This document shows, in pieces, positions 9,267-60,578 of a stretch of DNA of 64,000 bases (position 1 is its first letter; each line of letters opens with the position of its first letter). The DNA comes from Stakelama pacifica. Lineage in GTDB: Bacteria; Pseudomonadota; Alphaproteobacteria; Sphingomonadales; Sphingomonadaceae. The notes below the pieces were generated by a model that had not been told where the DNA came from, did not search any database, and saw nothing but the letters and a program-made list of their open reading frames with translations. The position numbers and the translations under genes were made by a program. The DNA is taken from the NCBI RefSeq assembly GCF_004361835.1, contig NZ_SNWD01000008.1, positions 62,001 to 126,000 on the forward strand, written 5' to 3'.

Positions 9267-9303
9267 AAACCCCTCTGCAACGCTCCGATAACTATTCTTT
9301 TGT

Positions 9304-9339
9304 CTTATAGAGAGATGGAGAGGCCTGCGGTCCTGCCGG
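9304..9339 (-). promoter_or_regulatory. Probable flgI promoter
   Basis: Read on the minus strand, a CTATAAG box (9304-9310) sits about 38 bases upstream of the flgI start, preceded by a GC-rich near-palindrome CCGGCAGGACCGCAGG (9324-9339). The box matches the CTATNAT element found before other flagellar operons here. The upstream element is a weaker version of the AT-core palindromes at 12.8, 33.5, 44.0 and 58.7 kb. Confidence 0.4.
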
Positions 9340-12713: not shown

Positions 12714-12762
12714 GAATGCGTCATCCCCTTTTCGGCGGGCAGGGATTGCCGCCGACACCACA

Positions 12763-12819
12763 ATCATAGGCAAGTTTTTCCTACCCCGGACCGGAGATGG
12801 GAAAATTCCTCCTATAAAT
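12763..12819. promoter_or_regulatory. Symmetric divergent promoter of flgC and fliN2 operons
   Basis: Two AT-core palindromes, GGCAAGTTTTTCC (12769-12781) and GGGAAAATTCC (12799-12809), are bracketed by outward-facing boxes: CTATAAAT (12812-12819, plus strand, toward fliN2) and CTATGAT (minus strand, 12763-12769, toward flgC). No TTGACA-like -35 or GG-N10-GC is present. The layout suggests one regulator dimer pair serving both directions. Confidence 0.55.
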
Positions 12820-12842
12820 TTGCGCAAGAGGGAGGTGCAGCC

Positions 12843-13082
12843 ATGTCCGTACTTGAAAATATATCGGTCGATATGTCGATCGTACTGGGTTCGACCCAGC
12901 TTCCGATCCGGCAGATCCTGAAGATGAGCCGCGGCGCGATGATCGCGTTCGACAGCGGTCAGGACGACCCCACGCAGATTTTCGTCAACGGCACGCTGGT
13001 CGCCAAAGGCCGGGTTCTAGTCGAGGGCGAGCGCATGTCGGTGGAAATCACCGAAGTCCTTCCCAAGGGGATGGCAATATGA
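12843..13082 (+). CDS. fliN: Short FliN-like switch protein (SpoA domain only)
   Basis: The 79-residue product is essentially one SpoA/FliN domain: 'VLGSTQLPIRQILKMSRGAM', 'DPTQIFVNGTLVAKGRVLVE' and 'MSVEITEVLP'. It lacks the acidic/Pro-rich N-terminal extension of the second FliN (56584-56997). It opens fliN2-fliO-fliP, the classical position of fliN, with a strong GAGGGAGG ribosome site. Whether it builds the C-ring, or forms a heterodimer with FliM or the longer FliN, cannot be told from sequence. Confidence 0.88.
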   Translation: MSVLENISVDMSIVLGSTQLPIRQILKMSRGAMIAFDSGQDDPTQIFVNGTLVAKGRVLVEGERMSVEITEVLPKGMAI

Positions 13083-28915: not shown

Positions 28916-30265
28916 TTACGCAGCCCGCACTTTTGCGAGGAATTGACCGACTTCGCCCGACAGCGAATTTGCACGTTCGGAAAGGTCTCCGGCAGAAGTG
29001 TAAACCTGTGACGCGGCGGCGCCGGACACTTCGGATGCCTGGCTGACGCTCACGATGTTGGTCGAAACCTCCTGAGTCGCGGCGGCTGTCTGCTGAATAT
29101 TTCGGCTGATTTCTGCGGTTGCGCTGTTCTGCTGATTGACCGCATTGTTGATCGTGCCGGCGATTTCGGCGACCTGGGCGATGGTGCCCGAAATTGTTTC
29201 CAGCGCCGATACCGCTTCGCGAGTCGATACCTGAATCGCGCGCACCTGAAGCTCGACCTCTTCGGTCATGCGTTCGGTCTGGCTGGCGAGAGTCTTAACT
29301 TCCGCGGCAACGACCTCGAACGCCTTGCCGGCTTCGCCCGCACGCGCCGCCTCGATCGATGCGTTGAGGGCGAGCATGTTCGTCTTGCCTGCGATCTGGC
29401 CGATCATGCCGATCACATTGCCGATCTGTTCGGCACCGGTGGCAAGCGTGCGCACGATTTCGTCGGTGCGCCGGGCATCGGCGACGGCGCGGTCGGTGGT
29501 GCGGCTCGATTCGCCCATCTGCTGCGCGATGAGCTGGATCGACGCGGCGAGTTCTTCGGCGGCCGAGGCAACGGTCTGCACGCCCGCGCTTGCCTGTTCT
29601 GCGGCGGCGGCGACGGTCATGGCGCGCTTGTTGGTCTGATCGCTGCTTTCGGTCATCGACCGGGCGGTGCCCTCCAGTTCGTTGGAGGAAGAGGCCAGCC
29701 GTTCGACGAGAGACCCGACATTCGCCTCGAACTCGCTTGCCAGCCCGCTCAGCTTGGCATCGTAGCTCGCTTTGTTTTCAAAAATATAGCCGGAAATGGC
29801 GAGATCCATGTCGATCAGCGCGGCCATGTTGATGGCGGCGCACAGCTTCGTCGCCTTGACGCTCTGACCGGTGCCGAGGCCTTTCCTGCCGGTCACCTTG
29901 CCGACATGTTCGAAGATATGGCGCAGCAGGAAGGAATAGCCGCCGAGATACCATTGCGGTTCCAGCCCGATCCGGCTGTGGACCATGCCGATCTGGCGAA
30001 CCGATGCGACATATTCGTCGTCGAACTTACCCGAAAACAGCTTTTTCCAATGGCTGATCTGCGCGCTGCCCGCGCGCGACATTGCGCCGCTGCCGCTGAA
30101 TTTGCCCGACAGATTCGGCCAGCGATTCAGGTTGGCATAGAAGGCATCGACCATTGCCGGCAATGCGCTCTCAAGCGTCGGGAGAAAAGCGGCAAGCTGG
30201 TCGCGCATCTCGTCGGTGAAACCGACATACGCAAGGCGATCAACGATCTCGTTGCTCACTCCCAT
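28916..30265 (-). CDS. Globin-coupled soluble chemoreceptor
   Basis: A 449-residue cytosolic methyl-accepting chemotaxis protein without membrane helices. Residues ~1-170 are a protoglobin/HemAT-like sensor with '[22 protein letters not shown]' and the proximal haem His H96 in '[20 protein letters not shown]'. The rest is a chemoreceptor coiled coil whose tip is '[20 protein letters not shown]' plus '[17 protein letters not shown]'. It should bind oxygen or another haem ligand and signal through CheW/CheA (aerotaxis). No C-terminal CheR-docking pentapeptide. A perfect dyad surrounds its promoter box (30288-30315). Confidence 0.93.
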
Positions 30266-33438: not shown

Positions 33439-33467
33439 CGCTGCCTCCCAAATGGGTGATTGTGCAA

Positions 33468-33574
33468 ATTATAGAAGCATGTGCGCGTGTCCCGACGCGG
33501 GGGGCGGAAAAAATTGCCGGGTGGAATTTTTTGCACCCGCAATGGGACCGGACGTTCGCGTCTGCCTCTATCAT
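33468..33574. promoter_or_regulatory. Divergent flbT / flgE promoter with paired palindromes
   Basis: CTATAAT on the minus strand (33468-33474, toward flbT) and CTATCAT on the plus strand (33568-33574, toward flgE) face outward from two adjacent AT-core elements, GGAAAAAATTGCC (33506-33518) and GGAATTTTTTGC (33523-33534), separated by four bases. The same four-base-spaced pair occurs upstream of fliF (58680-58709). No TTGACA-like -35. Confidence 0.6.
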
Positions 33575-40214: not shown

Positions 40215-40227
40215 TCCTATTATAGGA
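40215..40227. promoter_or_regulatory. Palindromic bidirectional promoter box
   Basis: TCCTATTATAGGA is a palindrome apart from its central base and presents CTATAAT to the minus-strand pair (39962-40189, 38154-39965) and CTATTAT to the plus-strand gene at 40276. The same core occurs between fliL and flgF at 43997-44008. Confidence 0.5.
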
Positions 40228-40275: not shown

Positions 40276-40677
40276 TTGGTTCGTCTGCTTCGCCTGTTTC
40301 CGCTCATCCCGCTGCTCGTGCTGGCGCCCCCGGTGGCTGCGTCCGGCGGCGAAAGCGGTGGCGCCGGCGGGGGCGCGGCTGCGCTGGAGACGCAGCCGCT
40401 GTCAGTGCCGATCGTGGACGGCAGCCGCATGGTCGGCAGGCTCGATCTGGTATTGCTGGTCGAACCCGATCCCAAGGCACCGATGACCTTCGCCGCGCCG
40501 GTGGTACGCGCGGCGCTGTACGCGGCGGCAGCGGAGTTCGCGCGGCTGAACGTATCCACGCGGCTGCCGGTCGATGCGTCCAAACTATCGCATATTCTGG
40601 ACAAGGCCGCGCATGACGCCGATCCCGCTGCCGCGCGCGTGTTGCTGATCGAAGTGCGCACTACGCCTGCAGGCTAA
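40276..40677 (+). CDS. Small secreted protein of unknown function
   Basis: A 133-residue protein with a signal peptide (LLRLFPLIPLLVLAPPVAA), a Gly-rich linker and a compact domain: 'QPLSVPIVDGSRMVGRLDLVLLVE' and '[20 protein letters not shown]'. A TTG start with AGGAG nine bases upstream is used, as for several flagellar genes here. The domain faintly recalls FliL-type periplasmic folds, but I cannot assign it. Divergent from the TPR-like/tail-anchor pair. Confidence 0.65.
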   Translation: MVRLLRLFPLIPLLVLAPPVAASGGESGGAGGGAAALETQPLSVPIVDGSRMVGRLDLVLLVEPDPKAPMTFAAPVVRAALYAAAAEFARLNVSTRLPVDASKLSHILDKAAHDADPAAARVLLIEVRTTPAG

Positions 40678-43949: not shown

Positions 43950-43997
43950 TTCCCGTTTCCTTTTGCGCGGGTCCGCGACCGGACCGGCAGTTTGGTC

Positions 43998-44030
43998 CTA
44001 TTATAGGAGAGTGAGCAGGCAAATTTTGCC
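43998..44030. promoter_or_regulatory. fliL / flgF divergent promoter region
   Basis: CTATAAT (minus strand, 44000-44006) lies 11 bases from GGCAAATTTTGCC (44018-44030), the most symmetric AT-core palindrome in the window. The plus-strand CTATTAT overlaps the same box (43998-44004), but the palindrome is then downstream of it, so flgF may start elsewhere in the interval. Confidence 0.55.
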
Positions 44031-44071
44031 TAGTCGCAAAAAACTGATCAGATTTTTGAAAGGCCGCTGCC

Positions 44072-46855: not shown

Positions 46856-46881
46856 CGGGCGCGTCACGGCAGAAAGACGAA

Positions 46882-46910
46882 GGGGTCGGCAGAAATGCCG
46901 GCCCCTTTTT
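46882..46910 (+). terminator. flgH terminator
   Basis: A ten-bp stem GGGGTCGGCA / TGCCGGCCCC (one G-U) with a GAAA-type loop followed by TTTTT, 26 bases after flgH. It separates the rod/ring operon from flagellin. Confidence 0.88.
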
Positions 46911-46993
46911 CGTTAACACACCGGCAACCATTAAAAATTCATCGGGCCCGACCGGGAAAACGATAATTCGCCCAAAATGGAAGTGCGACCTCA

Positions 46994-47042
46994 CTTCTGC
47001 AGGTTGTCGGCGGACCGCCGCTTCGGTCCATGGCTGCAGAAG
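46994..47042 (+). promoter_or_regulatory. Structured flagellin mRNA leader, possible FlbT target
   Basis: A perfect 9-bp outer stem, CTTCTGCAG (46994-47002) with CTGCAGAAG (47034-47042), encloses an inner hairpin GGACCG (47012-47017) / CGGTCC (47024-47029). It ends 29 bases before the flagellin ATG. An in-frame ATG at 47030 lies inside it. The interval 46911-46993 presumably holds the promoter, but neither a CTATNAT box nor a sigma-28 consensus is convincing. Confidence 0.55.
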
Positions 47043-55288: not shown

Positions 55289-56581
55289 TTACGCCGCAGG
55301 AATGGTGGAAATACCGGCTTCGACAAAGGCCTTCAGCTTGTTGCGCATGGTGCGCACCGAAATGCCGAGGATCTGCGAGGCAGAGGTGCGGTTGCCGTTG
55401 CACCGCTCCAGAGTCTGGAGGATCAGCGCGCGTTCGACTTCCTCGACCGTGCGACCTACCAGCGCTTCGACGGTCGCTTCGGAATTGCCTTCCACCGACC
55501 GGATGCGTGATCCGTCGGCAAGCACGATCGACTCCGCATCGATGCCTCCGTTGTGCGCGAGCAGCACGGCGCGGTGCATTGCTTCCTGAAGCTCCGCCAC
55601 ATTGCCCGGCCATTCATAGCCCTGAATCAGCCGCAGCGCTTCGGGGGCGATTGCGGGAACCGCACGGCTTTCCATCGCGGCAAAGCGGGCGACGAAGGTT
55701 TCGGCGAGCAGTGCGATATCGTTGCCGCGATCGCGCAGCGGCGGGATGGTGATGCTGGCCAGCGCGAAGCGGGCGAGCAGATCGGCGCGGAAGCGTCCGG
55801 CCTCGACCAGCGCGCCGAGGTCGCGCGAATTGCTGGCGATCAGGCGCGGTGCACCCGGCTCATCGATCGCGCTGAGCACCCGGTGCTGGAGCAAGGGCGG
55901 AAGCTGATCGATGTCGCGAAGGAACAGCGTCCCGCCGCGCGCCGTGGTGAAGGCCCCCCGTCGGTCCGCACGCGCGCCGGGAAAATCCCCCGCCTCATGG
56001 CCGAACAGTTCGGAGGCGAGAATGTCAGGCGCAACGCCGCCGCATTCGACGCTGTGGAAGCAGCCGCCATTGGATGCGGCATGGACCATATGCGCCACGC
56101 TCTGCTTGCCGGTTCCGCGTTCGCCCGAAATCAGGATCGGGGCATGCGCCGGTCCCATGGCACGGGCAAAGGAAAGCGCGCGGGTGAAATTCTGCGCTTC
56201 GCCGATCAGTGTGACTTCGGGCAGCACCGCGATCTGGCGGATCGCTGCAGCGATCAGTTCGCGGTCGGGGGGAAGGGGGACATAGTCGACGGCACCGGCC
56301 CGGATCGCTGCGACCGCGCGTTCGGCCGATGCATCTATGCCGCAGGCAAGCACGGGCACGCCGAAGCGTTCCTGAGTCAGATCGGCCAGAAAGCCCGGAA
56401 CGTCGGTTTCGACGTCGATCATGACCATGCCTGCGCCGCTGTCACGCAGCGCGCACAGCGCATCAGCGGGGGTGTCGGCAAGGCGAACCTCGGCACCCGC
56501 CCCGCGCGCCATTTCGGCTGCTTCGCGGAACGGGCCGCCCTTTGGCCCGACGAGCAACATCCTGACGATGGTGCCGTTCAT
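55289..56581 (-). CDS. flbD: FlbD, flagellar NtrC-family regulator with degenerate AAA+ motifs
   Basis: A 430-residue FlbD homologue. The N-terminal receiver-like domain (~1-115) lacks the paired acidic residues but keeps an Asp at 56, as in FlbD proteins not controlled by phosphorylation. The AAA+ domain (~125-350) has Walker A GERGTGK (153-159). The sigma-54-contact loop GAFTGA is replaced by GDFPGA (198-203), and the Walker B Asp-Glu is replaced by Arg-Asp (222-223; GGTLFLRDI). A Fis-type HTH ('RTSASQILGISVRTMRNKLK') ends the protein. Between fliN and flhA; FliX (9.4 kb) is the expected partner. Confidence 0.9.
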   Translation of the reverse strand: MNGTIVRMLLVGPKGGPFREAAEMARGAGAEVRLADTPADALCALRDSGAGMVMIDVETDVPGFLADLTQERFGVPVLACGIDASAERAVAAIRAGAVDYVPLPPDRELIAAAIRQIAVLPEVTLIGEAQNFTRALSFARAMGPAHAPILISGERGTGKQSVAHMVHAASNGGCFHSVECGGVAPDILASELFGHEAGDFPGARADRRGAFTTARGGTLFLRDIDQLPPLLQHRVLSAIDEPGAPRLIASNSRDLGALVEAGRFRADLLARFALASITIPPLRDRGNDIALLAETFVARFAAMESRAVPAIAPEALRLIQGYEWPGNVAELQEAMHRAVLLAHNGGIDAESIVLADGSRIRSVEGNSEATVEALVGRTVEEVERALILQTLERCNGNRTSASQILGISVRTMRNKLKAFVEAGISTIPAA

Positions 56582-58604: not shown

Positions 58605-58658
58605 AATCGCGATCCCTGGTTCAAACTCGGGACGGCGCGTGGCGTCCCCTGTGTATGA

Positions 58659-58709
58659 ACTATAGAAGGGAGTGCAGGAGGCAGGTTTTGCCGGTAGGAA
58701 AAATTTGCC
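58659..58709 (-). promoter_or_regulatory. fliF promoter with paired AT-core palindromes
   Basis: On the minus strand a CTATAGT box (58659-58665) is preceded by GGCAAAACCTGCC (58680-58692) and GGCAAATTTTTCC (58697-58709), spaced by four bases exactly as in the flbT/flgE region. The stretch TGCACTCCCTTCTATAGT resembles TGCTCACTCTCCTATAAT upstream of fliL. Confidence 0.6.
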
Positions 58710-58728
58710 GCCCCGAAGCCGGGGCGGC
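58697..58728 (-). terminator. fliG-fliH terminator overlapping the fliF control region
   Basis: A nine-bp stem GCCGCCCCG / CGGGGCGGC (58707-58715 and 58720-58728) with a four-base loop, followed on the minus strand by AAATTTTTCC. The T-tract is itself the distal half of the palindrome pair at the fliF promoter. Confidence 0.8.
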
Positions 58729-60491: not shown

Positions 60492-60541
60492 GGGTTTTTC
60501 CTGACCACCTGCGTCGGAACCCGTGCGTGCCCGTCTATTAT
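60492..60541 (+). promoter_or_regulatory. Probable promoter of the beta-propeller protein/flgB unit
   Basis: A plus-strand CTATTAT (60535-60541) lies 38 bases before the start at 60579. Upstream, GGGTTTTTCC (60492-60501) is a half-conserved AT-core element. On the minus strand a CATAAT box overlaps and could serve fliG. Confidence 0.45.
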
Positions 60542-60578
60542 GGAGGGGTGATCGGGTGGTCGGTCGCAGGGAGCAGTA

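Follow-up and report, generated by a model that had tools for sequence, protein, structure and literature searches.

The flbD locus and the motifs of its product

The window, i.e., the whole stretch of 64,000 nt of Stakelama pacifica DNA that was analysed, contains a polar-type flagellar and chemotaxis cluster as judged from gene calls and family matches. A globin-coupled chemoreceptor gene (Protoglobin and MCP signal domain; 28916-30265) is situated inside this cluster. On the minus strand, flbD (55289-56581) lies in the gene order flhA-flbD-fliN-fliF-fliH-fliG and is an intact ORF (55289-56581/56587) for a protein of 430-432 aa with a degenerate receiver domain, an AAA+ domain, and a Fis-type HTH. 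In Pfam, the protein matches PF00158 (1.3e-33) and HTH_8. The closest NtrC-like profile is FlbD, the top NCBIfam model (NF050807, 6.9e-113; runner-up 6.1e-64), though the score of 378 bits is about half of the 750-bit cutoff of this model. Consistent with the assignment, flhA adjoins the gene, fliN, fliF, and fliG are located nearby, and FliX, the partner of FlbD, is encoded in the same genome (9359-9781, plus strand). A second FlbD was rejected as a candidate, since none was found in the cluster. Only the C-terminal two thirds of the FliX of the window match the Pfam FliX model. Across the clade described below, FliX matches this model only from about position 24-42 on, its N-terminal part having diverged along with FlbD.

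Alignment of FlbD to ZraR, PspF, and NtrC1 placed two altered motifs exactly at the L1 loop and at Walker B. The L1 loop has GDFPGA where GAFTGA is canonical (55973-55990, minus strand), and Walker B reads GGTLFLRD in place of GGTLFLDE (55913-55936, minus strand), so that the Asp is replaced by Arg, while Walker A is intact (GERGTGKQ; 56102-56125, minus strand). These three features had already been described in a sequence-only reading of this DNA. That reading was correct but somewhat understated, because it overlooked that about 12 residues are also missing before sensor I, in the L2 region, where the deletion site reads IDEPGAPRL (55841-55867, minus strand). The L2 loop supports L1. Of the features of a sigma-54-dependent bEBP, FlbD thus carries neither GAFTGA nor the Asp-Glu pair of Walker B (Arg-Asp instead), whereas all three features of a GAFTGA-less bEBP, i.e., absence of GAFTGA, an intact Walker A, and an intact HTH (55331-55423, minus strand), are present.

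Distribution and conservation of the altered FlbD

FlbD orthologs were collected from three sources, namely 150 genomes at the family level, 398 at the order level, and a single scan across named genomes. The altered form was observed in a clade of 23 orthologs comprising the window, Stakelama flava, several Sphingomonas, Sphingosinithalassobacter, and relatives. In all 23 proteins of this clade, Arg replaces the Walker B Asp, the Thr of GAFTGA is either deleted or substituted (by Pro, Ala, Glu, or Asp), and the Lys of Walker A is retained. The remaining 20 aligned orthologs, likewise from this order, show neither change and are canonical throughout. The deletion of about 12 residues in L2 is restricted to a subclade of seven members (the window, Stakelama flava, and five Sphingomonas orthologs). 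All altered proteins fall on one side of a single branch with a support of 100/100, i.e., one change of state on the tree. The synteny around flbD is preserved on either side of this split, and hence altered and canonical FlbD are orthologs. The altered FlbD adds a new, lineage-wide form to the bEBPs known to lack GAFTGA; in the PMC literature searched, no description of an FlbD without this motif was found.

A sequencing error or a pseudogene was rejected as an explanation on account of the 23 intact orthologs and of dN/dS; the recurrence of the same losses in all clade members and in none of the 20 canonical orthologs likewise argues against a sequencing error. FlbD is under purifying selection: in comparison to S. 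flava, dN is 0.11 and dS is 0.91 (dN/dS about 0.125), and the protein sequence of the HTH is identical (dN 0). The HTH is nearly as conserved in altered genomes (identity 0.83) as in canonical ones (0.87), whereas the AAA+ domain alone tolerates more change (0.53 versus 0.74). This relaxed AAA+ domain, together with very divergent FlbD sequences in a few clade members (L016 and L101), would fit a decaying protein without function. Given the 23 intact ORFs, the dN/dS value, the unchanged HTH, the retained synteny, and the conserved operators and spacings described below, we regard such a relic as hardly credible.

Sigma-54 sites at flagellar genes

Upstream of flagellar genes, matches to the -24/-12 consensus with the invariant GG-N10-GC were scored, and in the six canonical and eleven altered genomes used for this purpose, the motif state of FlbD was checked one by one. 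In the relatives, the scan covered about 40 kb around flbD, and divergent sites scoring <11 escape detection. As genes were poorly called in several stretches of high GC content (G364, G447, and G154), the scan was repeated with gene starts anchored by homology, and the counts of flagellar heads refer to these starts. In the canonical genomes, sigma-54 sites were found at 18 of 93 flagellar heads (0.95 expected), located at flagellin genes, flgF, fliK, and flgI; in case of flgI, the promoter is present in all five canonical genomes in which this gene was located. With the same anchoring and a score >=11, sites were observed at 0 of 184 flagellar heads of the altered relatives (2.9 expected) and at 0 of 27 heads of the window. 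The contrast between canonical and altered heads is strong (Fisher p 1.6e-10), with counts that are non-independent owing to the kinship within the clade, and at the level of genomes it amounts to sites in five of six canonical versus none of eleven altered genomes (p 0.001). An independent count over noncoding windows at a score of 12 or more gave 21 canonical sites versus one altered site; a scan of whole regions gave a weaker contrast than upstream windows or homology-anchored starts. The -24/-12 promoters of flgI, flgF, fliK, and the flagellin genes were thus lost in the altered clade, and a third feature of sigma-54-dependent bEBPs, -24/-12 promoters at the target genes, is missing as well.

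Sigma-54 sites were recovered elsewhere in the S. pacifica genome as positive controls, namely TTGGCACGCCCCTTGCT about 60 bp upstream of glnK-amtB and CTGGCACGCCTCCTGCA at psp. Loss of RpoN was rejected as the cause, as S. pacifica encodes RpoN and none of the 26 genomes tested lacks it. With RpoN retained, the change is confined to the flagellar cascade. This specificity is also seen in several relatives with altered FlbD (L161-L164), in which FliA accompanies a second flagellar set whose sigma-54 promoters are intact. Due to these intact promoters, the loss is specific to the set controlled by FlbD, and such cells appear to use a different polymerase system for each of their two flagellar sets. 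Next to the second set of L162 lies a bEBP with GSFTGA and LLDE. A takeover by FliA was rejected, as FliA of the relatives mostly belongs to the second flagellar set and S. pacifica has none; neither FliA nor a second, FliA-bearing flagellar set was seen in its genome.

An altered FlbD could still take part in sigma-54 control if it formed mixed rings with an intact bEBP that supplies GAFTGA. RpoN and four bEBPs with GAFTGA (NtrX, a PrsR-like protein, PspF, and a response regulator) are encoded in the genome, and the arginine fingers are mostly retained in altered FlbD. Such a ring would, however, find no remaining sigma-54 promoters at the flagellar genes, and no other bEBP is located within the flagellar cluster, so that we consider this hetero-oligomer very improbable.

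Predicted operators, CTATAAT boxes, and the probable control by FlbD

From sequence, the FlbD operator is predicted to be a 17-bp palindrome, CCGGCAA-N3-TTGCCGG (CCGGCAAnnnTTGCCGG). In canonical genomes, the predicted operator lies upstream of the -24/-12 elements of late promoters, and a further one is situated at fliF. Coding periodicity distorted the counts of GGCAA-N-TTGCC over whole regions (with maxima at N2, N5, and N8), and the analysis was therefore restricted to noncoding DNA and gene-start windows. A PWM trained on nine canonical sites only gave seven noncoding matches in the window versus 0.75 expected, of which six are flagellar and one is weak and non-flagellar. The predicted operator was also found at the orthologous promoters of relatives.

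Footprints across relatives revealed a conserved (T/C)(C/T)CTATAAT box at fliL, fliF, fliG, the fliN-like gene, flbT, and flgI, at four of which the box is accompanied by a predicted operator. At fliL, the box CCTATAATAGG (43997-44007, minus strand) is preceded by the operator CAGGCAAATTTTGCCTA in the fliL/flgF intergenic region (44016-44032; PWM score 19.3), with the operator centre at -31 from the presumed start of the box in nine of nine genomes. Two tandem operators are located upstream of fliF, a proximal (58678-58694) and a distal copy (58695-58711), centred at about -34 and -51, respectively, relative to the box CCTTCTATAGTTC (58657-58669, minus strand). The fliN-like gene at 12843 carries the box TTCCTCCTATAAATT (12806-12820, plus strand), and the operator of the flgC/fliN-like pair (12767-12783; score 12.5) is centred at -50 of the box at 12813-12818 (-50/-51 across genomes); a second operator of this pair (12736-12752; score 14.9) is centred at -81. 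In case of flbT, the operator in the flbT/flgE intergenic region (33504-33520; score 17.9) is centred at -51 of the box CTTCTATAATTTG (33465-33477, minus strand), and -50/-51 is observed in most genomes. The boxes of flgI (CTCTATAAGAC; 9302-9312, minus strand) and fliG (TCCATAATAGAC; 60533-60544, minus strand) occur in most genomes with the operator absent, and FlbD therefore cannot be the sole input. Another CCTATAATAGG box without an operator (40216-40226, minus strand) is located just upstream of a flaEY-like gene on the minus strand and also near a divergent gene at 40276.

Altogether, 34 boxes of the form CTANAA occur within 60 bp of 44 operators in the altered clade (2.2 expected), 16 of them at a spacing of -50/-51 and 16 at -30 to -35, whereas 0 boxes were found within 60 bp of 33 operators in canonical genomes (2.6 expected). 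Genome-wide, the combination of operator and CTATAA occurs in 13 of 14 altered versus 2 of 12 canonical genomes, with 0 or 1 for reversed-pattern controls. Clade genomes are related and counts across them are not independent, yet the spacing of -51 recurs at three different promoters.

We presume that the CTATAAT box represents the -10 element, which would be read by a polymerase of the RpoD type. As an alternative, the box could serve an unrecognised dedicated sigma factor or another dimeric regulator, with FlbD acting alongside. The nearly palindromic form YCTATAATAGR, of which 28 of 31 genome-wide copies in ten altered genomes are located inside the flagellar cluster, speaks for such a factor. 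The variants CTAGAAT, CTACAAT, and CTATAAG are compatible with an alphaproteobacterial -10 element, and these copies, which occur at the same position, fit a -10 better than a dyad; we thus rate a dedicated factor as improbable.

Considering the motif losses, the missing sigma-54 promoters, and the operators together, it is likely that FlbD of the altered clade acts as a sigma-54-independent, operator-specific DNA-binding regulator of flagellar promoters of the sigma-70 type. According to the sequence-only reading, this FlbD binds DNA and perhaps ATP without remodelling sigma-54, and the flagellar hierarchy would thus differ from that of Caulobacter. This proposal gains support at the level of sequence from the conserved HTH and operator, from the fixed spacing of operators from -10-like boxes, and from flagellar sigma-54 promoters that are missing in the same clade but present in relatives with canonical FlbD.

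No -35 element was found at the CTATAAT boxes, where the best match is 1 to 4 of 6 positions, and the boxes thus look activator-dependent. Because of this and of the rigid spacing by about two helical turns (-31 and -51), we lean moderately towards activation as the direction of control. Repression retains some probability, since the operators at -31/-34 overlap the -35 region and FlbD of Caulobacter represses fliF from ftr4 (PMC3930126), a repression that is modulated by FliX (PMC3096577). Altered FlbD might then have kept just an ancestral, sigma-54-independent repression of class II promoters such as fliF and extended it to fliL, the fliN-like gene, and flbT, while other factors, CtrA for instance, took over the activation of late genes. 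The flagellin promoters, which mostly lack a predicted FlbD operator and carry a CtrA-like TTAA-N7-TAA box (46856-47029 in the window; seen by eye), would agree with this. However, the strict spacing of -50/-51 at three promoters is unneeded for repression, the boxes lack a -35 match, and the fliF operator of canonical genomes adjoins a CtrA-like box that is absent in altered genomes. Repression as the direction of control, and a repressor-only FlbD with it, is hence rather unlikely in our view. The flagellin promoters of the clade also share a conserved TTTTGG...TTCCCAnAATGA stretch.

On this view, FlbD gave up both the L1 contact to sigma-54 and the Asp of Walker B in a single ancestor, whereas the ancestral operator CCGGCAA-N3-TTGCCGG was kept. 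In the clade, this operator is situated at -31, -34, and/or -51 relative to a presumed CTATAAT -10 element lacking a -35 at fliL, fliF, the fliN-like gene, and flbT. With activation as the preferred direction, FlbD would, from these fixed positions, most likely stabilise or recruit the housekeeping RNA polymerase via direct contact, with FliX presumably still as its partner. By analogy to NtrC of Rhodobacter capsulatus, ATP is probably bound without being hydrolysed. There is about an even chance, in our estimation, that one lineage transferred its whole polar-flagellar cascade from sigma-54 control to the housekeeping polymerase, with FlbD as an AAA+-derived, ATP-gated, non-hydrolysing contact activator. 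If so, sister lineages preserve the state before the switch. Because sister families offer both the earlier and the later state for comparison, the way in which a sigma-54 regulon is converted to the housekeeping polymerase is directly testable. Sphingomonad papers describe FlbD as a sigma-54 activator (PMC8921679), and the sequence argues otherwise. Single GAFTGA-less regulators were already known; in this clade, the change extends from the regulator to the promoters of an organelle's genes.

E. coli TyrR, an NtrC-like protein without GAFTGA, regulates sigma-70 promoters. VpsR of Vibrio cholerae is likewise NtrC-like, lacks GAFTGA, and acts at sigma-70 promoters; PMC10274813 cites the GAFTGA-less Vibrio case. 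Both are single regulators, whereas in the clade described here the promoters of an entire organelle regulon changed along with their regulator. FlbD/FliX of Caulobacter crescentus is an orthologous system, as indicated by the profile (NF050807), the flhA-flbD order, and the FliX partner. Caulobacter FlbD also acts independently of sigma-54 in its role as fliF repressor (PMC3930126). In contrast to the altered FlbD, where GAFTGA, the Walker B Asp, and the promoters are gone, it possesses GAFTGA (PMC10274813), and late flagellar genes are activated by it at their sigma-54 promoters.

According to PMC10274813, NtrC of R. capsulatus is devoid of GAFTGA, activates the housekeeping (sigma-70) polymerase, and requires ATP to be bound but not hydrolysed; the retention of Walker A with the loss of Walker B in altered FlbD fits this precedent. 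Action of a GAFTGA-less bEBP with the housekeeping polymerase would be common to both, which in case of Stakelama FlbD is a proposal. NtrC of R. capsulatus differs in that it belongs to another subfamily and another process and that its L1 loop is deleted, whereas L1 is mostly substituted in altered FlbD, which in addition carries the Walker B Arg and has operators near the start (-31 to -51). NtrC of Caulobacter, a further bEBP without GAFTGA at sigma-70 promoters (PMC10274813, PMC12421884), retains the Walker B Asp, which is required in vivo, while altered FlbD always has Arg.

NtrC of S. pacifica (L005; G000:C1 near 346558-347043) resembles NtrC of Caulobacter, as it lacks GAFTGA (ELFGVEEGGDLVRPGM) but keeps FLDE; FlbD and NtrC, two bEBPs of one genome, thus left the sigma-54 mould by different routes. 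A bEBP-like protein of this genome (L009; G000:C6:11012-11185) has a Walker A, no recognisable L1 region, and VLDR as Walker B. In a response regulator (L002; G000:C17:6629-7126), GAFTGA is intact and Walker B reads FLDR, i.e., the Glu and not the Asp is lost, while its relatives have FLDE.
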